From NCBI GenBank assembly GCA_032622095.1, contig CP136063.1:216151982-216215981 (forward strand): 64,000 nt of DNA. The letters run 5' to 3'. Each line of letters starts with the position of its first letter. The first letter of the stretch is position 1. Under the pieces are notes generated by a model. It saw nothing but the letters and a program-made list of their open reading frames with translations, was not told the DNA's origin and ran no database searches. The position numbers were made by a program, and so were the translations under genes. Origin of the DNA: Siphonodentalium dalli. Its lineage: Eukaryota; Mollusca; Scaphopoda; Gadilida; Siphonodentaliidae. Of the stretch, positions 43,553 through 61,967 are shown in pieces.

Positions 43553-44075
43553 ACTAGCCGATGAGCCCGACGTTGTCCGGGCTATTCATCCGGGCTATTC
43601 AAAAACCAAATTTCAAGTCGATAGCTCTACCCGTTTCCGAGATCTGGTCTGCGCATGCGCGAAGCTGGCGTCGCACGGGCTCGGCGACCCGATAAAATTC
43701 GTATCCGGGGCAAGATACATTCACATACCAAATTTCAAGTCGATAGCTCCACCCGTTTCCGAGATCTCGTCTGCACATGCGCGAAGCTGGCGTCGCACGG
43801 GCTCGGCGACCCGATAAAATTCGTATCCGGGGCAAGATACATTCACATACCAAATTTCAAGTCGATAGCTCCACCCGTTTCCGAGATCTCGTCTGCGCAT
43901 GCGCTGTACGGGCGTCGCATGGGCTCGCCAATACGACAACGACGACCGCCTGGTCAAACTACCCACACGTACCAAATTTCGTCCCGATCGGTCGAGAATC
44001 GTAGATTTGTATTAATGACAGACAGACAGACAAACAAACAGACAGACAGACAGAGGTCTTCAAAATATATATGAG
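43553..44075 (+). repeat. 122-bp monomer array 3
   Basis: Head, three monomers, TTTCGTCCCGATCGGTCGAG segment and GACA tail, as in array 1. Here the head contains a duplicated CCGGGCTATTC. Confidence 0.85.
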
Positions 44076-44593
44076 ACTAGCCGATGAGCCCGACGTTGTC
44101 CGGGCTATTCAAAAACCAAATTTCAAGTCGATAGCTCCACCCGTTTCCGAGATCTGGTCTGCGCATGCGCGAAGCTGGCGTCGCACGGGCTCGGCGACCC
44201 GATAAAATTCGTATCCGGGGCAAGATACATTCACGTAGCAAATTTCAAGTCGATAGCTCCACCCGTTTTCGAGATCTCGTCTGCGCATGCGCGAAGCTGG
44301 CGTCGCACGGGCTCCGCGACCCGATAAAATTCGTATCCGGGGCAAGATACATTCACATAGCAAATTTCAAGTCGATAGCTCCACCCGTTTCCGAGATCTC
44401 GTCTGCGCATGCGCGAAGCGGGCGCCGCACGGGCTCGCCAATACGACACCGTTCACCGCCTGGTCAAACTACACACACGTACCAAGTTTCGTCCCGATCG
44501 GTCGAGAATCGTAGATTTGTATAAATGACAGACAGACAGACAGACAGACAAACAAACAAACATACAGACAGAGGTCTTCAAAATATATATGAG
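44076..44593 (+). repeat. 122-bp monomer array 4
   Basis: Head to tail with array 3, again with three monomers and an identical order of parts. Confidence 0.85.
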
Positions 44594-45149
44594 ACTAGCC
44601 GATGAGCTCGACGTTGTCCGGGCTATTCAAAAACCAAATTTCAAGTCCGGGCTATTCAAAAACCAAATTTCAAGTCGATAGCTCTACCCGTTTCCGAGAT
44701 CTGGTCTGCGCATGCGCGAAGCTGGCGTCGCACGGGCTCGGCGACCCGATAAAATTCGTATCCGGGGCAAGATACATTCACATAGCAAATTTCAAGTCGA
44801 TAGCTCTACCCGTTTCCGAGATCTGGTCTGCGCATGCGCGAATCTGGCGTCGCACGGGCTCGGCGACCCGATAAAATTCGTATCCGGTGCAAGATACATT
44901 CACATAGCAAATTTCAAGTCGATAGCTCCACCCGTTCCCGAGATCTCGTCTGCGCATGCGCGAAGCGGGCGCCACACGGGCTCGCCAATACGACAACGTT
45001 CACCGCCCGGTCAAACTACACACACGTACCAAGTTTCGTCCCGATCGGTCGAGAATCGTAGATTTGTATAAATGACAGACAGACAGACAGACAAACAAAC
45101 AAACAAACAAACATACATACAGACAGAGGTCTTCAAAACATATATGAGA
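44594..45149 (+). repeat. 122-bp monomer array 5
   Basis: It follows array 4 directly. The head has a repeated GGGCTATTCAAAAACCAAAT block (44627-44680). Confidence 0.85.
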
Positions 45150-48387: not shown

Positions 48388-49189
48388 AGTGGATAAAAGC
48401 ACACAAAAGGGGAACAAATCCGCTTGGGGCAGGAATATAAATTCAAGAACTGACTTTTGTATGCAAACATATAATTACAAAATTAGCACAAAAATACCGA
48501 TGGAATACATAATCAATACCAACTAATAAAAATACAATTTACGAAGGTTTCACATAAAGATATATAAAGTGGTTTCTAATATCGGACTTTGCACTGAAAA
48601 GATATTTATGATATTTCATGAATCTAGCGTGAGCTTAACACTTATCATTAAATGCGTAAAGTTGACGGCCGGGCGGATGACACCGAAGGTCGTTTTTCAC
48701 TCAGCCGGAAGTTTCAATCCACAAATAATGTTTGGCGTCTTTCAAAGTTAAAAGTTTCTCTTCAAGTATCGAGTTAAACTTTTCAAACCCAATTATCAAC
48801 CTATGTTTCCGAGATACTGTTTGAGAGATTTTTGCGACTGGTTTTGAGCAACAGGCTCAACTTGAGTAGATTGTTTTTTGAGGCGAATGGCTCAACCTGA
48901 GTAGAAGGTTTTGGAGCAACTGCCCTAACTTGGGCATTTTTAGTCGAGTTTTCAAAAAACTCGACTTATGGTTTGACGAGGGACGGTTGGCGGGCGGGCG
49001 GGCGGGCCGACCTAAAGAATGCCTTATAACTTTGACATTTGTGAACGGATTCAAAAATATTTTGGTATTTGAGTTGCTCCTACTGACTATTTACTGTCTG
49101 TAGAAAATGGGTCACGTCCGAACTTTTTGACAAGAGTTATCCATCTTTGATGATTTTTTTGCAATTTTATCACCCGCTAGTGCGATAAC

Positions 49190-49990
49190 TCAATCAAATA
49201 TTAACTGATTACAACCATATTTGATATATGAGTCTTTGCAACAATATCTCGGACGAGTTCGAAAACCAGGTTTGTCTGAATTTTTTCCCCGGAGTTATGG
49301 GCCTTAGTTTGTCTATTTTTAGCATTTATTTTCACCGTTAGCGCGATAACTGAATAAAATATTAACTGATTCAAACCATATTTGATATATGAGTCTCTTG
49401 CAACAATATCTCGGACGAGTTCGAAAACCAGGTTTGTCCGAATTTTTTCCCCGGAGTTATGGGCCTTAGTTTGTCTATTTTTATCATTTTTTTTCACCGT
49501 TAGCGCGATAACTGAATCAAAATATTAACTGATTCAAACCATATTTGATATATGAGTCTGTGGCAACAATATCTCGGACGAGTTCGAAAACCAGGTTTGT
49601 CCGAATTCCCCCCCCCCGGAGTTATGTACCTTAGTTTGTCTATTTTTAGCATTTTTTTCACCGTTAGCGTGATAACTCAATGATTTTTTTTTTCAAACTC
49701 GGACGAATTCGAAAACCAGGTTTGTCCGAATTTTTCCCCGGAGTTATGGGCCTTAGTTTGTCTATTTTTAGCATTTTTTTCACCGTTAGGTCGATAACTG
49801 AATCAAATATTAACTGATTCAAACCATATTTGATATATAAGTCTCTTGCAACAATATCTCGGACGAGTTCGAAAACCAGGTTTGTCATAATTCCCCCCCC
49901 CCGGAGTTATGTGCCTTAGTTTGTCTATTTTAGCATTTTTTCACCGTTAGCGTGATAACTCAATGATTTTTTTTTTCAAGAGTTAATTTC
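49190..49990 (+). repeat. Tandem array of 162-bp monomers, five copies
   Basis: GGACGAGTTCGAAAACCAGG occurs at 49251, 49413, 49576, 49701 (variant) and 49861. Each monomer continues TTTGTC..CCCGGAGTTATG, CCTTAGTTTGTCTATTTT, CACCGTTAGCG and GATAACT.AAT. One monomer is shortened. The same unit reappears at 61373 and 61542. Confidence 0.85.
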
Positions 49991-50410
49991 TATGCATAAC
50001 TCAATGAAATATTAAACAATTTCAACACCTGTGCACCTGCTATTCGAAATTTGGTTGGGCTGAAATTTTGCTGGGTGAGTACCAATTTACTTTATTCAAA
50101 TACCAAAATTGTCTTTTATTCGATTCCATTGAATACCCAGAAATGTTCTTGTATTCGAATACATTGAAAAGTATTACATGGCGCGAGTAAGCTGCTCCAT
50201 TCAATCGAAACTTTTAGAACATTGAACATATCCATTCAATCTATTATATATGTTCAATGTTCGGAAATTAATTTAAACACTGTATGCAATTTTAGAAACT
50301 TTTTGGAACATGTGTAACAGGTATAACTTCAGATTATATTTCTGGTGGAGCAGGTTGCTATTGGTTTCCCTCCTCGTGGGCGCGCTGGTAACATGAACAG
50401 GACTGTCTAT

Positions 50411-50510
50411 AATCGATGTGTTGAATTTCAAAATACTCAGAATTGTTTACATGTACTAATAATCGATGTGTTGAATTTCAAAATACTCAGAATATTTTAC
50501 ATGTACTAAT
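50411..50510 (+). repeat. 50-bp tandem duplication
   Basis: Two copies of AATCGATGTGTTGAATTTCA plus the following 30 bases, differing at a few positions. Confidence 0.8.
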
Positions 50511-50735
50511 AATCATTTCTATAGTAGACACGTCAACATCGTTATTAAAAAAATTCAGTCAACACATCTGTAAAAACGAAATTTGAGAAAATTTTCATTG
50601 CCAGTCTTTTCCATGGCCAATAACCATTTCCATTTTTAGTATCCAGCTCTTTTAATTTTACAGATACATGTTCTAGTGGAATCTCAGCCTCACCAGCAGT
50701 ATCCTCTACCATCGGATATTCCTAAATGTACGGAT

Positions 50736-50876
50736 GCATGAAACTTTTTTGTAACTTATACTTCTGGTGTTTATAGCACTCCGCATGAAACATTTTTGTA
50801 GCTTACACATCTGATGTTTATAGCACTCCGCATGGAACCTTTTTGTAGCTTACACTTCTGATGTTTATAGCGCTCC
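50736..50876 (+). repeat. 47-bp tandem repeat, three units
   Basis: Units start GCATGAAACTTTTTTGTA at 50736, 50783 and 50830 and contain CTTCTGATGTTTATAGCACT. A further single unit occurs at about 53165. Confidence 0.7.
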
Positions 50877-51216
50877 TGATTTTCAGCACTCCTTCTTAGA
50901 CGGTTTTGTAACCCTGCTATGATATGGCTTCAGCTTTCTGATGTTTTGTAACCCTGCTATGGTGATGGCTTCTGATGTTCAGACCTCTGGATATGGTGTT
51001 CACTAATCCTTTCTTCTTTTTACTATCATAGCTTTTTTCACTTGGTGCTAGGGTCCTGCAAATACTTGATTATTCTGGTCGATCAAAGTTTAGTCAACGT
51101 TCAAAGTCAATATGTTGTACTGCTTGATATTCGAGTAGAATTATATCTGATATTTGCAGGACTCTACAGTCTACTTTGTTCATGGGTAATATTGAGAAAT
51201 TAAAATATGTATATAC

Positions 51217-51900
51217 ATGTACCATGCTTACTTCGCATTCAGAAATATGGATAATTATCACAACATAAAGAGCAAAACTCTCCATATCGCGGGAATGTTT
51301 GCTCGGTTGAGATCCGGGTCATATTCAATTGATACTGCCTTCACCCAAGCTGTGAAAGCCACCGGCTCGATTGATATGTCAGCGGACCAGATGAATTCGA
51401 AGGAAGCAGAACAACGAAAGAAGCTTCAATCTACACAGAAGGAAATATATCTCCTAAAGCAGCAGCTCAAACGTTCCCAGGCCCAGACTTCCGAATTTGA
51501 AGAGGAAGTTATGAAACCCTCAAGTTCGCAACGGTGCTCATTGACACAATTATAATTGTCCCAACTTACGAACCAGAGTCTGTTCTCCGATTACATGTAT
51601 GAGTCGGAAAGCCAGGAGGAGAAAATTTCAGAAATTCAGCCAGCTAAAGATGATGAGTCGTAGTCAAATAAGTCGGAGTCAAATAAGTCACCAGAGAGTA
51701 AAGATGATAAGTCAGATAAGTCACCAGAGAGTAAAGGTGATAAGTCGGATAAGTCACCAGAGAGTAAAGGTGATAAGTCGGATAAGTCACCAGAGAGTAA
51801 AGGTGATAAGTCAGATAAGTCACCAGAGAGTAAAGGTGATAAGTCGGATAACTCTAATGCAACCAGACGACAGAAAGGGTGATAAGTCGGAAATTATAGG
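51217..51900 (+). pseudogene. Broken ORF: coiled coil plus DKSDKSPESKG tail
   Basis: The frame opens at 51217 and is in step through TAA (51553) and TAG (51659) to a stop near 51881. The middle (MNSKEAEQRKKLQSTQKE and KQQLKRSQAQTSEFEEEV) predicts a short coiled coil. After the first stop come ESESQEEKISEIQPAKDD and then five or so exact 11-residue repeats DKSDKSPESKG. No family is recognised. It may be a Helentron-carried ORF or a broken gene fragment picked up by it. Confidence 0.45.
51655..51860 (+). repeat. 33-bp coding minisatellite
   Basis: Unit GATAAGTCGGATAAGTCA plus CCAGAGAGTAAAGGT, about six copies, nearly identical. The 33-bp length keeps any frame open, and one frame gives DKSDKSPESKG. 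Confidence 0.85.
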
Positions 51901-51909
51901 ACTCTAAAT

Positions 51910-53380
51910 GATCAACTTATTTTGAAGATAATATTCATTACAATTGCATTAAAATGTTTTGTATTAGATAAATACAACATTAGCATGATATGTTCAATAT
52001 CCCAATTTGTTTAAAGTGTGTTCTTTTGCTCACGAGAGGCTTGAAAATAACTCACTTTCAACGAGTTGAGATATTGAACATATAAAAAAACACTATGCTA
52101 ATATCATATATTTCATTTTTAGCGTGGGCATAGCCAGCTGTTAATTGCCTGTAATATTTTTGTTCATTGTTAACTTGAGCTAGTGCCATGCAATAACAAG
52201 TTTGAATATTATTTTATTATTAATATTGTATGTGCCAGCTAGCTTAGATTTGTCTTCAGTATAGTTGCATGTCGTTTGTAGCGTAATTTAATGTTCCTGT
52301 TGTCTTTATCAAAGAGAAAAACCAAACAGTCTTTAACTTAAACGAACAGAAAATATTTAAATTTTATATAACCATTTGAGTTTGTTACAGCATCCAATTA
52401 GAGAAATAAGTTTCAATATTCTTGTAAAATCTGTAAAACATTATTATGCTTAGTTTTGAATTAAAAGGTGGAGTTGACTGTGGCTGTAAATCAAGAATAC
52501 TCAAAATGTTATGACGTATTCTGACTGCTATAGCTGGACGTATTCTGACTGCTATAGCCTGTTTTCTATCTGGATTTCTTTATAACTTATCAGCCCAAAT
52601 TGTCCTAGCAACATGTAGGTTTAACAGAGATATCTTTATACTACTTCTACAGAAAATTATACCATTGATATCACGAACATGTTGGACCATCGATGCAAAC
52701 GTTTAAAAATAATCAATGTCTATATGACTTTTTGAAACAACTTATAAAAGATAAACATGGATGTCTATTTCCTCGCCATCTGGTTTTACTACTATAACAC
52801 TATCTTCCACTATGTGCATATTCGGATCTATGGAATCATGAATGGCAACCCAATATGGGTGTACTTATTCCGAATTATTTTGCCCCAGTACTAAACACAA
52901 ACATAGAATCAGTAACTAAATTTTCTCTTTGATTATCTATACATATTTTTTGTTTTGGATTTCTGAGTGATAAGTAGTTTAGGTCACATGATAATTGATC
53001 GAAATAAAACTTGGTATAATTTTTCACGATTTCTTCTCTCTAAACACAGAGTCAATAACTAAACAAACCTCACTGATCAGCCATATAGATTTGAGTGTTC
53101 TTGGTTGAAAGGGGTGATACGGAGGCCACATCATTTTCAGGGAAATACCACATCATCATTTTCAGGGATGAAACTTTTTTGTAGCTTACACTTCTGATGC
53201 TTAGCACTCCTTCCTTCCTAGATGGTGTTGTAACCCTACTTAAAAGTGCACTTTATAATTGTTTCAGGATGTACAAATCGATAAAAAAACACTTTATAAT
53301 TGTTCCAGGATATGCTCACAGCTAACGGTTTGTTCTTTTCATTTCAGTTGTTTCGGAACGTCTAAATTAAAGAATGCAGT
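51910..53380. other. Stretch without recognised coding content
   Basis: AT-rich. A 24-bp direct duplication (GACGTATTCTGACTGCTATA) lies at 52511-52558, and a lone 47-bp unit related to 50736-50876 at about 53165. It may be the Helentron leader. Confidence 0.4.
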
Positions 53381-53389
53381 TGTTTCAGA

Positions 53390-54430
53390 ATGCCTAAATT
53401 GAAGAACAAGAGTGTGGCGCAACGGCGAACCCAGTCATCGGTTCTTACTGCAGCCAGGCGTGAAGTTGTTAGTGGACTTGATGCAGTTTCGAGTGAGAAT
53501 AAAACTATGGAACCAGTGAGTGACATGCCTAAATTAAAGAACAATAGCGTGGCCCAACGGAGAGCCCAGTCATCTGACAGGAAAACTAGTGATAAAGGAT
53601 CCGCAAGTGAGGACGTGCCTAAACGGCGAACCCGGTCATCTGTTCTTACTACACCAGGCGTGAAGTTGATGCTGGACCCGACGGAATTGCGAGTGATAAC
53701 AAAAATGTTCGCGGTGGACATGCAGAAGACAAGAGTCAAAACAGAAATATTGAACTCACAAGTGACATGCCTAAATTAAAAAAAAAATGTTCGCAATGGA
53801 CGTGCAGAAGTGAATAGTGGGAACAGAACTATGGAACCAGTGAGTGACATGCCTAAATTAAAGAACGTTAGTGTGGCCCAACGGAGAGCCCAGTCATCTG
53901 ACAAGAAAACTAGTGATAAAGGATCCGCAAGTGAGGACATGCCTAAACAGCGAACACGGTCATCTGTTCTTACTACACCCAGGCGTGAAGTTGATGCTAG
54001 ACCAGCAAGTGACATGCGTAAATTAAGCAAAAATGTTCGCGATGGACGTACAGAAGAGAACTATGGAACACACAAGTGACATGCATAAATTAAACAAAAT
54101 TTTTCGCAATGGACGTGCAGAAAAGAAGAGCGCGAACAGAACTATTCTGACTGAGAAAAATAGTGATAAAGTACCTGCGAGTGAGGACCTGCCTAAATTA
54201 AACAACAAGGTTGTGACCCAACAGGTCACCTGTTCTTACTACATCCAGGCGTGAAGTTGTTGCTGGACCCAATGGAATTTCGAGTGAGAACTCAAACATT
54301 CGTGATGGACGTGCGAATGAGGACCAAACAAATTATGATAAAGCAGTTGCGAAAAACATTGCATATGCCAACAGCACTAAAATTCAAAACATAACGACTG
54401 TAGGTTTGGATTTGAAGACCCTAACACAAT
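53390..54430 (+). pseudogene. Helentron ORF 5' part: degenerate basic repeats
   Basis: Opening from MPKLKNKSVAQRRTQSSVLT, the region repeats two modules: (D)MPKLKNxSVAQRRAQSS and KTSDKGSASEDxPKRRTRSS..TTP. They occur near 53390, 53527, 53849 and 54170, with indels between. The product would be basic and Ser/Lys-rich, probably disordered. Frames shift at about 53780 and 54080, so it is broken. It leads directly into the peptidase-like segment with no other start needed, which is why it is grouped with the Helentron. Confidence 0.5.
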
Positions 54431-54960
54431 GATTTGTTAGTATAATTGTTCTTGATATGGCTTCTGCGATCCTTGCTACCCAATTTGGAACATCCCATGG
54501 AATTCTGCCACCATCTCTGTTACTTCACTCCAATTTTGACGAATCCTTGTGTATTCCTTCCAACGTCAAGGCAGTTCAGATTCACTATGTATCCAGTCAC
54601 TATGTTACATCTGTACAAGATCATGGCATTATTTATGTTTATGATTCCAAGTATTCCCCGAGAAGAATGACAAGCATCAATCCCCAACTCAACAAACTAT
54701 ATTCCTCTGTCAAATCAGGTTTCAATACGAAGACGAGATATATTGTGTCTCAGAATCAAAGCACTAGCTCTGACTGCTGTGTCTACTGTCTCCAATGCCC
54801 TTTCCTTACTTAGTTCTGAAGATCCTTTGCCATTAACAATTTCTCATGATGTAGCTAAGGCACACTTCATCAGTTGTTTGAATAACAATGTTTATTCGAC
54901 CTTCCCCACTCACAAATCTTTGTTACAAACAGTCTCTTCAAAGGGAAACACTGTTGGGCC
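54423..54960 (+). pseudogene. Cysteine-peptidase-like domain (Ulp1/C48 type) of the Helentron
   Basis: The frame from 54457 (MASAILATQFGTSHGILPPS) contains AVQIHYVSSHYVTSV, GIIYVYDSKYS and VSQNQSTSSDCCVY. These fit the His, Asp and Gln..DC(G) blocks of the Ulp1/adenain-like peptidase that accompanies many invertebrate mobile elements: candidate His at 54598, Asp at 54643, Cys at 54775. The Gly after the Cys is Cys here. A one-base shift near 54785 moves the reading to the frame ending NALSLLSSEDPLPL and then AHFISCLNNNVYSTFPTHK, the usual segment after the catalytic Cys. The family call rests on the motif pattern only; an OTU-type peptidase, known from other Helentrons, is the main alternative. 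Confidence 0.6.
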
Positions 54961-55136
54961 TTCAAAGAAAACATGCCTCAGAGAGAATATACATGGCAGC
55001 AACAAACTATTACAATGGACACAAACAGAACAAACTGTCGCAACATTAGCTCATAACTCACAGAACGAAATAAGGCAAACACTACAATCTTCTAAGAAAC
55101 TACTTTCCAGAAGAAACCAACTTCGGTTAAAGGAAA

Positions 55137-55760
55137 GGAAACGCAATAGCTCTCGAATTGCTGAGAATGAAAAGAGAAATGTACAGAGAAGGCAACTGAG
55201 AGAAGACGACCTATTCAAGAGTAAAGAAAAGGAGAAAAGAAATGTCAAAAGGAGAACACTGAGAGAAGACGACCTATTCAAGAGTAATGAAAAGGAGAAA
55301 AGAAATGTCAAAAGGAGAACACTGAGAGAAGACGACCTATTCAAGAGTAATGAAAAGGAGAAAAGAAATGTCAAAAGGAGAACAATGAGAGAAGACGACC
55401 TATTCAAGAGTAAAGAGAATGACAAACGGAGAAAACTGAGACAAGATGACCTACTCAAGAGTAATGAAAAAGAGAAAAGAAATGACAAAAGGAGATAACT
55501 GAGAGAAGACGACCTATTCAAGAGTAAAGAGAATGACAAACGGAGAAAACTGAGACAAGATGACCTATTCAAGAGTAATGAAAAGGAGGAAAGAAATGTC
55601 AAAAGGAGAACACTGAGAGAAGACGCCATATTCAAGAGTAATGAAAAGGAGAAAAGAAATGTCAAAAGGAGAACAATGAGAGAAGACGACCTATTCAAGA
55701 GTGACGAAAAAGTGAAAAGGAATATCAAAAGGAGAAAAAAAGAAGAGAAAATGTGGAATT
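55137..55760 (+). repeat. 63-bp coding minisatellite in the Helentron ORF
   Basis: About nine units encode LREDDLFKSNEKEKRNVKRR plus one residue. Some are shortened to KENDKRRKLRQDDL. The frame stays open to a TAA at 55496 and continues in register after it. The product is a highly charged helical, basic spacer between the peptidase and Rep domains. The minus-strand frame 55728-55051 is its shadow. Confidence 0.8.
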
Positions 55761-55928
55761 CAGTCAGGCAGAAAAGAGAAAGAGAAATCCTCGTATAAAC
55801 ATATTAAGAGGACAAGTGGACTATGTGACAGCGGAAAATTACAAAAGAAATCAATCTAGAAAGGAAAGTGGGCTGACCTACTATATAAGATAAGACAAAA
55901 GAACAAGCAGCCCCAGAGACGATCGTCA

Positions 55929-57210
55929 TTGAATTATAAAATTAATGAAAGGAATTGGTCTCGTAGAAGCAGAAAGAAGAAGATTATATTTGATTTGTTA
56001 ACAATGGACAAACTTATGTTTGATCTTCTTAAAAGGGGTGATGCTTTTATCTGCACATGCTGTAATCAGACATTTTATCAACATGGTGTCTACCATGCTA
56101 CACATCACAACTATACTAGAAAGCAAGTTCCAGATTCTTTGCTTGAGAAATGTCTTACCGGAATTGTCAGTGGAAGTGATTCAAGTTAAAAAAGGTACAG
56201 ACAAACCAAGTCAAAAGTTCCATCATGACTGCAATGAGGAAAGTGAAAGGCAAAACGCAGTATATAGCTTCTGACATGCTAGATGATGGGAGAATGAAGC
56301 AAATTTTTACACATGATGGGGGCTATAGAATCTTGAAAAACCTGCGGTCTGCGCCTGCGTTCTTTGATGAAAAGCAGAAAGAGCTCTTTGCCATGATCAG
56401 GCAGCTGGGAATGCCAACTTTCTTTTGTAGCTTTTCTGCTGCTGAGACACGGTGGTCTGACCTGCTCAATTTGCTATACAAGAAAGCTTATGGAAGAGAG
56501 GCTAGTGAGGAAGAAATAGCTAACCTATCATTTATGGAGAAATCTAAACTAATTCAGCAAGATCCAGTCACATGCTCTCGTCATTTTCAGTTCAGGGTCC
56601 ATCTATTTTTCAACAATGTCTTGAAAACGTCTCTGAATCCATTAGGCAAGATAGTGGACTTCTATTACCGGGTGGAGTTCCAGAACAGAGGTTCTTCTCA
56701 CCTGCATTGCCTCTTTTGAATTAAAGACAGCTCAGTATATGGAAAAGATGAAGATGCTGATGTTATAAAATTTATTGATAAACATGTATCCTGCTCTGTG
56801 AGAGACAATACTGAATTTAATGATTTGCTGTATGTACAAACACACAGACATACCAAGACATGCCGTAAAAAGACTGCTAATGAATGCAGATTTGGCTTTC
56901 CAATTCCACCAATGCAAAAATACCTGCATCTTGGATGCACTACCCAAAGACTACCCTGATCTGAAAGACCACAAGATGATGTTTTTGAAAATAAAGAAGT
57001 TACTTAATGACAAAATATCTACCACTCTGACTTTCCACCAATTTCTACAGAAACTTCATCTGTCTTAGCAAGAATATATCACAGCTGTTCAATCAAGTCT
57101 CGTTAGAAAACAGATATTCTTGAAGCAAGGCATGGCTGAAACTAGAATAAATGCTTACAACCCTAAACTGTTGTCTATTTGGAAAGCAAATCTAGATAAC
57201 CAGTTCGTAC
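55929..57210 (+). pseudogene. Helentron Rep part 1: Cys-rich segment and HUH domain
   Basis: FICTCCNQTFYQHGVY (56040-56095) is the Cys/His segment found ahead of Helitron Rep domains. The Helitron_like_N region follows: FTHDGGYRILKNLRSAPAFF, LGMPTFFCSFSAAETRW and FYYRVEFQNRGSSHLHCLF. HLH is the HUH pair (His codons 56699 and 56705). An in-frame TGA at 56717 replaces the expected Trp, after which IKDSSVYGKDEDADVIKFID, HRHTKTCRKKTANECRFGFP and PIPPM continue in the same frame. Further shifts occur at about 56170 and 56940. The segment ends NPKLLSIWKANLDNQFV, where the hAT element enters. Confidence 0.85.
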
Positions 57211-58402
57211 CAGGGTTGGGGTAATCGTAATCAGTAATCGTAATCAAAGTAATCGATTACAAAATTTGGAGTAATCGTCTGTAATCAGTAATCATGACAT
57301 TTCTTGATTACAAGTAATCGTAATCGTAATCGATTACTTTCAAATGTACCTGTAATCATGATTACATTTTGATTACTTTTTGATTACTTTTACTAAAATA
57401 TCCATATGGATGGCTATTGGATACTCATAGTCTCATACTGTGGAGTGTGAAAAGATACAAACAACATATTAGAAAGTTAGTACAATTATGTCATGTGTTA
57501 TGTTAGTGGTACAGTGTGTATGCATATTCTGGCAGTGGACACAGATAACAACACACAATTGTTGAATACAACATGAATGGCAATAAACTTGTGATACAGA
57601 CAATGAAATGTTCTAATATGAATAAATAGGCTAGCCAACTTCAATTATGATTAAATTGAATTGGGATTGATGCAGACAATGGCTGTAGAGTCACACTGGT
57701 ATACAATAGGGCTAATTAACTGAACAAAGCAGGTGTGATGTACATCGGTAGACCTAATTAGCTGGTTTGTCATTTACTGCACTCGTGGAGTTAAGCCTCA
57801 TTTAATCCTCATCAGGATTAACAATGGATGATCATCAAATAAATCTTAGTGTTATCTTCATTGTGTTGGGTATTGAATCTAACAGAACATGCAAATAATT
57901 TATAATTGTTTCTGGTGATATTTTCATAAATAGTATGCGTTAGTTTGAATGCATGTAAGAAAATTTAAAATATATTAAAATATATTTACATAAATAAATA
58001 CACATAAACATAATGTATTCCCAATAAATTGGTGCATACATTCATGATGAAACCTTTCCAATACATGTAAATGGAAAAAAGTTTATATGTTTATTTTATT
58101 GCTTGCATCTTTCTATTGTTTCAGTCGTTTCTTATTTCCATGTTATGCAGTGATGTCTTTATTCAATCAAATTTGATAATTTAATTTGAATTATTTCATT
58201 ATTTATTCCTATGCGATCAAAATGGTTGGAAACTAACAATTGTAATCAGATGTAATCAAAAAGTAATCGATTACATTTACTAAAGTAATTGTAATCGTAA
58301 TCGATTACATTGGAAAAAATGTAATCAGTAATCGTAATTGTAATCATGTAAATCAAAAGTAATTGTAATCGATTACATTGGCATGTAATCGCCCCAACCC
58401 TG
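57211..58402. mobile_element. Non-autonomous hAT-type element nested in the Helentron
   Basis: The termini CAGGGTTGGGG (left) and CCCCAACCCTG (right) are inverted. GTTCGTAC is duplicated on both sides (57203-57210 and 58403-58410). An 8-bp duplication with CAG-type ends is diagnostic of hAT. Both subterminal regions are full of GTAATCGATTAC and AATCGTAATC motifs. The centre (57400-58130) is AT-rich with no transposase. Confidence 0.9.
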
Positions 58403-58410
58403 GTTCGTAC

Positions 58411-58985
58411 TCGACCCATGGGCAGTATGTGTGTAAATAGCGGCCTATATTATGAAGTCTCAAAGAGGTATAAGCCGCTTGCTCCGAACAGCATCAGAAG
58501 AAGCGAAGAAAGGTAACATGCCAGTGAAAGAGAAACTTCGCTTTTTGGGTAATACTTTCCTGAACCACTGTGAGATAAGTGCACAAGAAGCAATTTATCT
58601 ACTCTTACAGATGCCACTTACTCAGAGTAGCATATATGTCCTGTTCATCAACACAGATCACCAGGACAAGAGAATGTCCATCCTAAAGACGACAAATGCT
58701 CTGAAGGCATTAGATGCTAATAGTACAGACATTTTCTGTGAAGGAAATTTAGTGCAATATTCTCAGAGACCACAGGAATTAGAATCTCTTACACTAGCAG
58801 AATACTGCTCAGAATATGATGTCAGAGCCAAGACCTCCAGTACAGAAGCTGATGCCGACAAAACTGACAACCCTGTACAAGATGTGCAGCTTAGTTCACA
58901 ATTCGCCCTGCCTTCTGGTAAACGCTTAGTTAAAAGGATCGCCCCAAGGTAATATCAAACGTGCTGAAGAGAATTTCTTTCGTGA
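58411..58985 (+). pseudogene. Helentron Rep part 2: catalytic tyrosine region
   Basis: After the hAT element the same frame resumes: LDPWAVCV, a TAA stop (58433-58435), then IAAYIMKSQRGISRLLRTA. The Helitron Y2 motif is Y-x-x-x-Y; here the first Tyr position is the stop and the second Tyr is kept. EISAQEAIYLLLQMPLTQSS and FINTDHQDKRMSILK follow, as in other Helitron proteins, and STDIFCEGNLVQYSQRPQ leads to a stop after VKRIAPR. FFREQIMLYHPWRK in a shifted frame (58966-59010) is the usual linker to the helicase. Confidence 0.85.
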
Positions 58986-59028
58986 ACAAATAATGCTCTA
59001 CCATCCATGGAGAAAATAGAGTGAAATA

Positions 59029-60888
59029 TTGGGTAATTGTAGTTCATATAGGCAATACTACCTTCAAGTACAAGATGCAATTCATGCCTTATATTCAAAG
59101 TTTAATGCCCTCGGAGAAAGATTTGAAGACCCCATAGGACAGATAAATGATGAGATTATACAGAATGCCATGGACGTGTTGGCTCCTAATGATGCACACT
59201 CTAATGTGGAAGAAGAACAGTATTCAGTGATAACAGATGATTTTCAAGCTCTACAGATGGATGGTTCACACCCAGATGTTGACTTGGCTCATGAAGGCCT
59301 ACAAGATGGAAGTATTGCACAAACTGTTAAAGTTGCTAGACTTTCCTATGAAGACTATCTCGGTACTATGGGGGCTCTGAATGGTCAACAATCCGCTCTT
59401 GTCAACCACATTCTTCACATTAGTAAGACTGAGATAGAACCCTTACAATTTTCCTCTCAGGCGGTGCTGGAGTTGGAAAAAACTTTGTCATTAAAGCTCT
59501 TTCTGAGAGTTTGCAGCGCTATTATGATTGTCAACCTGGCAGTAATCCAGATGAAATAAAGTTGTTCATAGCAGCTCCTACAGGTCGTGCTGCATTTAAT
59601 GTCAATGGCAATGCAGTACACTCACTGTTTGCTATCCCACCCAATGAATCTCTTCGAAACTACAAAACACTTCCATATGGTCGTCGCAACACACTGAGGG
59701 CATTATTTCTAAATCTCCGGCTCGTGATAATAGATGAAATCTCAATGGTCGGCACTTTTATGTTGAATTATATAAATCAGAGACTGCAGGACATTTTTGA
59801 TTCACAAAAGCTGTTTGGTGGGGTCTCTGTCCTCTTTGTTGGAGATCTGTTTCAGTTGAAACCTGTTGATGATATGTGGATATTCATGACACCCCATGGT
59901 CCATACACTGATCTGGCTACTTGCGTTTGGGTTGACTCAGTAAAAATGTTCGAACTCAACAAAATTATGCGCCAAAAAGACATTTATTATGCTGAAATGC
60001 TCAACAGAATCAGAGAAGGAGTACATACACAGTCAGACATTAATGTGCTGAAAACAAGGGAAATATCGAATGTCTTTTCTTTTCCTGCTGTTCCTCACTT
60101 GTTCAACCAGAATGGTTGATAGTTACAATGAACACGTCCTTGGACTGTCAAATACTGAGTCAGGAATATTTGTTGCTGAAGACTTCCTTAGAGGACAAAT
60201 TTCAAATGAAAAGAAAGATAGACTTCTTAAAGAATTAAAGGAATATCCTTCAAAATTCACACAGAACCTTTGATATCGACTCCATCTTTAAATTGATGCA
60301 CTATTTATGCTGACTCATAACCTTGATACAGAAGACGGCTTAGTTAATGGTGCAACATGTGTCCTGAAGCATTTCTCAACAGTGCAGACAACCAGTGGAC
60401 CTGTGCATGTAATTTGGATGCAATTTGACAGCGATGTTGTGGGACTAAAACAAAAGCTGAAGATGATACACCTCTATGGAAAAAACCTGAGTTCCAGTTG
60501 GGTTCCTCTGATGAAAGTTGCCAAATAATTTCAGCTTGTTGGAGACAAAGGAGTGATGGCAACTAAGAAGCAATACCCTGTTAGACCATGCTTCGACATG
60601 ACCATACATAAGGCTCAGGGCGCTACCCTCCCAGAAGTTGTAATTTATTTCGAGGAATGCTCCAAGATATTTCTGTATAAATTTAACGAGTCACGTATAA
60701 ACATTGACAAAAATGTCACGGAAGAAATGCAGAGACTACGGAAAAGTCTTTTGATTCTGAAGCCTGTAATTCCAAATGTGAAGGACTCAAACATATTGAT
60801 AATCCTTCTCAATACTAGGAGCAGATGTATTTGTAAGAGACATTCCCTGCGCCTTGTGATCCAAGTGAAGTTACAATATCTAACATGA
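59029..60888 (+). pseudogene. Helentron helicase (PIF1-type, SF1B)
   Basis: Helitron helicases unwind DNA during rolling-circle transposition. Visible motifs are Walker A GGAGVGKN (59460-59483, Asn where Ser/Thr is usual), IAAPTGRAAFNVNG (motif Ia), VIIDEISMVG (Walker B, about 59726-59755), VLFVGDLFQLKPV (motif III) and TIHKAQGATLPEVV (about 60601-60642, motifs V-VI). The reading is broken by a frameshift at about 59440, the stop at 60117, and further breaks near 60270 and 60528. The N-terminal portion (GNCSSYRQYYLQVQDAIHAL) matches the pre-helicase linker. Confidence 0.88.
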
Positions 60889-60894
60889 CAATAT

Positions 60895-61350
60895 GACAGG
60901 ATTGATAGCAGTTCACCAAAACAGAGACATGGTGGAACCGTCATCTTAAAAAAACAACACATATTCTATGAACACAAATCAACTGTGTCACTATCAGGAA
61001 TAGAAATTGAAATAGGATATGTGGGAAATGTTCTCCTCTTGACACTTTATAAGCCACCTTCACAGGATATCAGAACTGCGCTTAAATTACTCAAAACTCA
61101 GCTACAACAAATTCCTGTCAAAAATGTCAAAACCAGTGTACTCTGTGGTGATATCAATGAAAACTTCCTTGATCCAACTACTCACGTGGAAGAATTCAAC
61201 GACTTCATGAAAGAAACATTTAGTGTAATTCCCATCGTCCACGAGGAAACAACTGATTACCATTCCGCATTGGATCATATTTACTGTCGGTCAGCAGATA
61301 TCGATCATGGTGGACAGACCACAAGATAGTTTAGCTATCCCTGCCAATTG
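60895..61350 (+). pseudogene. Helentron C-terminal AP-endonuclease-like domain
   Basis: This is an exonuclease-endonuclease-phosphatase type fold, related to LINE endonucleases. SPKQRHGGTVIF precedes IEIEIGYVGNVLLLTLYKPP. VLCGDINENFLD carries the Asp-x-Asn catalytic pair (about 61144-61152), and HSALDHIYC the LDHI block (about 61261-61286). The final Asp-His motif (WTDHK, about 61311-61325) lies in another frame after a shift and is followed by an in-frame TAG. An endonuclease C-terminal to the helicase separates Helentrons from canonical Helitrons. Confidence 0.82.
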
Positions 61351-61372
61351 AAAATTGACTACAAGTGGAAGT

Positions 61373-61600
61373 GGACGAGTTCAAAATCCAGGTCTGTCCA
61401 AAAAACATTCCCCGGCGTTAGGGGTCTTACTTTGTCATTTTTTTTACAATTTTATCACCATTAGCGCGATAACTAACTCTATGAGATATTAACCAATCAT
61501 TCAATTTATATTTGGTATATAATTCTATTGCAATAATATCTCAGACGAGTTCGAAAACCAGGTTTGTCAGACTTTTTGGGCCTTGTGTGGGCCTTATTGC
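61373..61600 (+). repeat. 162-bp monomers at the 3' side of the Helentron
   Basis: GGACGAGTTCAAAATCCAGG (61373) and GACGAGTTCGAAAACCAGG (61542) start two partial monomers of the same family as 49190-49990. The first begins about 45 bases after the end of the endonuclease domain. Confidence 0.8.
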
Positions 61601-61967
61601 CAAGTTATTGGCAGAAGTTGTTTTCGACTGCCAATAAACTCGACATAGCATCTTAGATGCGTATCCCTTGTTATTATATAAAGTCGTGTCCATGGCCTGT
61701 GATACAGCCAGTATCGGTCCATTCCACTTGAGTTGATAGCGATACATTGACTACATTATTTTGACTGAGTTCTGGCATTTCGCTGTGGACATAACCGCAA
61801 TAAAAATGTACGATGTTCAGCTGACGGTGGAAGTCCAGAAATTTTCTGAGCGTCTGGATATGGCATTTATTTCTCAGCTTGAATTTTCTGTAGTTGGAAT
61901 TCATAGTCCAAATCGGACACGAACGATATATTGCTGAGTATGCACCGATACAATTTGAATATAATTT

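Follow-up and report, generated by a model that had tools for sequence, protein, structure and literature searches.

We investigated a decayed Helentron copy and the ~162-bp tandem monomers near both of its ends, within a 64,000-nt stretch of genomic DNA (the window; coordinates are positions in it, and the Helentron copy it contains is termed the window copy). Pfam domains were identified within 56180-61326 in the order Helitron_like_N, PIF1 and Exo_endo_phos, which is the Helentron order of Rep and helicase followed by an endonuclease, the endonuclease match of this copy lying below the cut-off. The features are collected in Table 1. Other genomic regions are referred to by contig (C1, C4, C5, C6 and C7) and by examined locus (L followed by a number), and the repeat searches of the genome scored at most 40 of about 1,900-2,400 candidates.

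Table 1. Features of the Helentron copy in the window and the evidence for each.
Feature	Position	Strand	Basis
Whole Helentron copy, decayed	48937..61672 (12,736 bp)	+	Ends from genome copies; unity from C1 copy and deletion derivatives
5' end: T-run followed by a hairpin of the subterminal repeat with its inverted copy	48937..48966	+	Starts of genome copies; folding
GGGC microsatellite of left module	48989..49008	+	Read from the letters; similar run ahead of array of C5 relative
Degenerate monomer within left module	49026..49164	+	Monomer profile match, E 2.1e-5
Five-monomer array, ~162 bp each, fourth shortened	49174..49937	+	Tandem Repeats Finder (TRF) and monomer profile
5' non-coding body, kept whole or partly in short derivatives	49985..50348	+	Sequence comparison
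Rep-region segment (Helitron_like_N), frame ended by in-frame stop	56180..56716	+	PF14214, 1.3e-25
Nested 1.2-kb non-autonomous insertion in Rep gene, presumably hAT-like	57203..58410	+	8-bp direct repeat, inverted ends; C5 relative continuous there
PIF1-like helicase segment	59433..60116	+	PF05970, 4.1e-23
Endonuclease segment	60889..61326	+	PF03372, 0.0011, below cut-off; C5 counterpart frame above, 1.3e-5
Two partial monomers, terminal monomer type of the family	61372..61606	+	Monomer profile; tree clade 100/98
3' subterminal repeat, complementary over 9 bp to 48943-48951	61636..61644	+	Left-right comparison
3' palindrome GCATCTTAGATGC, 12 bp ahead of end	61648..61660	+	Folding; genome-wide pattern count

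Ends, monomers and coding region of the window copy

The boundaries of the element were defined by comparison with other genome copies. A search with the left region gave 42 non-self rows, 41 starting at 48934-48940 and one later; on the right, 30 of the 39 best non-self rows ended at 61672-61675, the other nine ending between 61659 and 61680. The first-pass annotation, made from the letters of this DNA, had placed the left end at 48943-48965, which is a real hairpin (folding z -5.3, with 0 of 200 shuffles equally stable), although genome copies begin at about 48937; its right end at 61660 moves to about 61672. As is typical of Helentrons and their short non-autonomous derivatives (HINEs), a short palindrome, GCATCTTAGATGC, lies 12 bp from the 3' end, and the 28-nt 3' end containing it folds with a z of -5.0 (0 of 200 shuffles as stable). 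The left and right subterminal repeats match perfectly over 9 bp, or over 10 bp with one mismatch. The left 11-mer AGTCGAGTTTT of the window copy was found in 24 of 30 elements; among the 30 elements with both ends and flanks known, the base preceding the left T-run was A in 19, and the right end CTTGTT was followed by T in 15.

For the monomers, TRF identified a period-162 array at 49155-49681, with overlapping rows reaching 49979, which the monomer profile resolved into units at 49174-49326, 49333-49489, 49495-49654, 49659-49776 (shortened) and 49781-49937. The same profile recovered right-hand units at 61372-61443 (partial) and 61456-61606. The earlier reading of the array and the right-hand partial monomers as one ~162-bp unit is borne out by blast within the window, in which 49190-49990 aligned to 61373-61596 at 77% identity (227 columns, E 1.1e-40). 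The right monomers start ~43 bases past the end of the endonuclease frame (61329), indicating that they are non-coding.

The coding capacity of the window copy is not intact. An in-frame stop ends the Rep segment, the frame changes within the helicase region, and the Rep gene is broken by a nested element with ~20-bp inverted ends, a flanking 8-bp direct repeat and abundant GTAATC motifs, which we take to be hAT-like. Because of the stop, this 1.2-kb insertion and the frame changes, the window copy is non-autonomous as it stands, and is a fossil of the autonomous partner.

Other coding copies, short elements and deletion derivatives

We identified few other copies of the coding region. Helicase-region DNA was found at three genome places, namely the window, C1 (93% identity, partial) and C5 (66%), and the endonuclease region at five, being whole in the window only. 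The C1 copy (L032) runs from the left module, starting at 48971, through the array and the body to 51552 with a 2.2-kb insert, and continues with the helicase (59646-60662), the right monomers and the 3' end, at 91-97% identity.

The C5 element is a divergent Helentron, with 59-70% nucleotide identity to the window copy over the coding alignments. It carries an array of 3.6 monomers of 161 bp upstream of its genes, preceded by a GGGC run, and partial monomers downstream of its endonuclease, and its 3' end holds a palindrome of the same form as that of the window copy; no 5' subterminal repeat was recognised in it. Its open frames of 477 and 309 residues matched PIF1 (4.7e-25) and Exo_endo_phos (1.3e-5, above the cut-off) respectively, its Rep region holds a frame of 378 residues without a Pfam match, and its sequence is continuous where the nested element breaks the window copy's gene. 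We additionally observed a coding tandem repeat of 63-bp period at 55194-55786, in the 5' coding part of the Helentron, encoding a lysine/arginine-rich peptide; a repeat array matching it is present in the C5 relative, so this part of the protein is conserved.

Short elements that share these ends and bear at least one monomer, for which the first-pass annotation had proposed a search, are present in large numbers. The 3'-end 25-mer occurred at 1,120 genome places with at most one mismatch, and the window-type right-module pattern at 264 places with at most three, with the reversed controls giving 0 in both cases. At all 12 distinct non-self places first examined, sequence of the left module, the monomers and the right module was found inside a span of about 1.7 kb, and ten places retained both termini. 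This architecture, of modules with central tandem monomers of about 140-180 bp, is that of the bivalve pearl and Cg_HINE elements.

We further examined, in map order, 20 of the 3'-end 25-mer places, within the first 79 Mb of C1 (L038-L057, 1.5 kb each). Left-module sequence was found in 18 (not in L043 or L046), and all 20 contained seamless arrays devoid of body remnants, save one monomer-like match of 32 bp. The right module differed from that of the window in 20 of 20, so that the window copy as direct parent of these elements is unsupported.

A second set of loci (L002-L008 and L017-L031) was picked by match to the window right end, the endonuclease region or the 5' body, so the share of these elements holding body sequence is not a frequency. 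From 21 loci, we discounted L018, L019 and L024 (repeat places), L023 and L026 (the C1 copy) and L011 (no body), leaving 15 distinct short elements that retain body sequence, in 14 different deletion structures; the left module was at least partly present in 14. Eight hold 5' body beside the array, with junctions at 50348/61334 (L006), 50291/61311 (L021), 50271/61320 (L025), 50320/61454 (L027), 50229/61440 (L028), 50186/61495 (L029 and L030, two places) and 50142/61612 (L031). The other seven go from the array straight into the endonuclease-region 3' end or its flank, entering at 61322 (L002), 61330 (L003), 61313 (L004), 61157 (L005), 61093 (L007), 61339 (L008) and 61198 (L020). Two further loci, L036 and L037, gave 5'-body matches alone, without element ends. 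Taken with the order seen in the C1 copy, these 15 derivatives, which join array, body and right end, uphold the earlier suggestion that the monomers belong to the protein-coding element.

At the junctions of the eight 5'-body loci we found overlaps of 1 bp (L006, L028, L029 and L030) or 5 bp (L031), or filler of 4-22 bp (L021, L025 and L027), and the array-to-3'-body junctions showed overlaps of 0-11 bp or a 9-bp gap. These resolved junctions lend no support to the idea that short elements arise solely by homologous recombination of left with right monomers; for short elements with seamless arrays this route is possible.

Empty sites were recovered for two of 12 joined flanks (L029 and L003), and both indicated insertion into T-rich sequence with no target duplication, in agreement with the T-T target habit that the first-pass annotation had proposed to check. 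For L029, six uninterrupted places were aligned, four of which read five Ts at the site; at the occupied site, five Ts adjoin the left end of the element and two its right end. For L003, a paralogue at C7:111074670 reads through the junction, leaving slight ambiguity where the sequence is T-rich; these two empty sites do not fix the cut position within the T-run. When the 12 junctions were searched together, 39 of the 40 scored places belonged to L029 and one to L003, and the other ten junctions were therefore barely sampled.

Kinship of the short elements and alternative readings

The window copy is close to the short elements that share its type of right module. Over 202 bp of 5' body it was 95.5-98.5% identical to seven copies, and it differed from the local consensus of this region by two substitutions (range 1-7, eight rows), and from that of the right module, of about 180 bp, by three (range 0-4, 12 rows). 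It ranked highest in the left module, with nine substitutions (range 1-9, 11 rows), leaving out L026, whose figure of 22 is inflated by its missing left end. Under the published subfamily rule of at least 80% identity across the last 60 bp (PMC4067079), the window copy groups with 18 of the 21 loci fetched by similarity, a set containing the C1 copy and one majority-type locus (L016), and with 19 of the 20 map-order loci, the misses being L021, L025, L027 and L039. These comparisons support placing the coding element and the window-type short elements in one lineage. That it is the autonomous partner of a local HINE family, as had been suggested, holds to this extent; the copy is decayed, and parentage of the majority elements is unsupported.

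The monomers were also compared in a tree of 56 rows, in which bootstrap values are unsettled and row L002_m6 sits on a long branch. The terminal monomer of the window copy joins the terminal monomers of the C1 copy and of short elements (100/98 for all ten), the window-type terminal monomers group together (six rows, 100/99), and the left and right monomers of the C5 relative form one group (98/95). The majority-type right modules fall into a separate terminal-monomer clade.

We conclude that, very probably, 48937-61672 is one Helentron with ~162-bp monomers near both ends, that it is a fossil of the autonomous element partnering the window-type short elements, and that the partner of the majority subfamily was closely related to it. 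Several observations weigh against this. The C1 copy lacks its initial ~34 bp and the greater part of the coding sequence, and helicase- and endonuclease-region searches of the genome found no intact coding copy of the lineage. The endonuclease match in the window (0.0011) is under the Pfam cut-off. The L025 derivative is without a detectable left module, and the body remnants of L002, L003 and L008 are short (34-51 bp). The 9-bp subterminal repeat falls short of the published 11-15 bp, and the 61-nt 3' end folds no better than shuffles (z -0.84), although the palindrome alone does.

The majority subfamily could instead have been served by another, undetected coding Helentron, the window element serving the window-type elements only. 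Majority-type right modules have a median identity to the window of 85% over the last 60 bp, compared with 95% for the 21 similarity-fetched, mostly window-type loci, and they have their own terminal-monomer clade; however, both types satisfy the 80% rule (19 of 20 and 18 of 21) and have left modules and monomers in common, and we consider a separate partner rather unlikely. The short elements could also be ancestral, a pre-existing HINE having gained the coding body, as might be read from the seamless, remnant-free arrays of the map-order sample (20 of 20, bar the 32-bp match). This we regard as improbable, given that the 15 elements with partial body show 14 structures, as deletion predicts, and that the divergent C5 relative already has genes between its monomers. 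Finally, the monomers at 49 kb and 61 kb might be two independent HINE insertions flanking an unrelated coding fragment, HINEs being abundant and inserting into or beside one another (L013, L041 and L053), and the outer boundaries of the C5 relative being read from that one copy; but such a coincidence is scarcely credible, as short elements join the array to the 5' body (49985 on) and the 3' body to the right end, the same order recurs in the C1 copy, and the window has neither a 3' end after the array of the left module nor a 5' end before the right monomers. Independent insertion of both monomer sets is contradicted by the C1 copy and the deletion derivatives. Two outcomes were named beforehand as telling against the reading of one monomer-bearing element, namely independent insertions and a lack of short elements with these ends, and neither came true.

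If the window copy is one such Helentron, its lineage would have carried ~162-bp monomers just inside the 5' module and again just ahead of the 3' end. It would formerly have moved, judging from its domains, by a rolling-circle mechanism using Rep, helicase and endonuclease, inserting in T-rich sites without target duplication, as seen at two sites. Deletion of the coding middle, entirely or for the most part, would then have produced HINEs keeping the end modules and monomers, a step documented by the deletion derivatives, and these short elements may have spread by the action of the lineage's proteins in trans. We infer that the monomers are inherited spacer DNA, with copy number shifting by slippage or unequal exchange. 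It is possible, and we propose it tentatively, that they are a built-in part of a molluscan Helentron lineage, flanking the genes before the two coding lineages split, rather than a later capture by short elements. If so, molluscan satellite-like arrays of this size would arise inside autonomous Helentrons and be freed by internal deletion.

Comparison with known elements and further observations

The structure of Helentrons and HINEs was defined, and deletion derivatives reported, by Thomas, Vadnagara and Pritham (2014, PMC4067079); this and the other papers below are cited from portions of their text. The Helentron/HINE pairs of mite, mosquito and Drosophila described there have in common with our system the Rep/helicase/endonuclease content, subterminal repeats (here shorter, at 9 bp) and a 3' palindrome, the T-rich insertion without target duplication, and end-sharing deletion derivatives that outnumber coding copies. 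Tandem repeats occur in some of those HINEs and are described for non-autonomous copies, whereas the coding element here bears ~162-bp monomers on both sides of its genes.

Cg_HINE of the Pacific oyster (Vojvoda Zeljko et al. 2020, PMC7492417) is also similar, with a left module containing a subterminal repeat, its inverted copy and a 4-nt microsatellite, a right module containing a subterminal repeat and palindrome, and TT-type insertion. Its central monomers, of 138-181 bp with two clusters at 162 bp, are of the size class found here; the likeness is one of layout and monomer size. The same study placed 7,151 satellite-like arrays of the oyster in HINE elements and could not connect ten autonomous Helentrons with HINEs, leaving the partner unresolved. 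In contrast to Cg_HINE, for which no autonomous partner was found, a partner was found here, in decayed form. The pearl elements (CvA, CvE and CvG) and the BIV160, HindIII and Cg170 satellites of bivalves are alike in monomer size class and layout, by their descriptions (PMC7492417, PMC11136912). The link to bivalve HINE/pearl-type elements drawn by the first-pass annotation thus holds for structure, in modules and monomer size class, and not beyond it. Searches of literature text with three short monomer motif strings gave no match, and no description of a coding Helentron whose genes are flanked by monomers on both sides was found in the available portions of PMC4067079, PMC7492417, PMC11136912, PMC12628747 and PMC9659126. 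New here are the monomers at both ends of a coding element, an arrangement that its divergent relative shares, and the collection of deletion derivatives. Common ends, remnants of the body and the divergent relative tie coding element, deletion derivatives and monomers together within one genome, and through this link the origin of satellite-like HINE arrays becomes testable.

Several loci showed compound arrangements. L051 (1370-1525) has two 3' ends, 87 bp apart; L053 (626-2603) has a head-to-tail pair of short elements separated by about 30 bp; and in L013 and L041, short elements are nested in or lie beside monomer-like sequence of other elements. Seven window-type right modules lie on one strand at C6:227645902-227913427, spaced about 46 kb apart in five cases and 35 kb in one, a pattern resembling tandem duplication of a segment that contains a short element. 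Within the window, two 122-bp tandem-repeat blocks alternate with GACA microsatellites at 44017-45127, and might be another monomer-bearing element.

Host sequences were also considered. A muscle-type myosin exon scored 141 bits to PDB 3i5f, which we take to be squid myosin, and 131 bits to 1dfk/1b7t and kin, presumably scallop chains, with others lower; these scores suggest a mollusc, and not specifically a bivalve. A search for the mollusc haemocyanin domain gave 0 matches, with an uninformative control, and the first myosin loci (from L065-L070) were not of muscle type and carried no taxon signal. Muscle-type myosin exons resembling one another are numerous across 1.3 Mb at C4:274219458-275508405, and several contain a stop codon within the part that matched; they form a cluster of myosin genes or pseudogenes.

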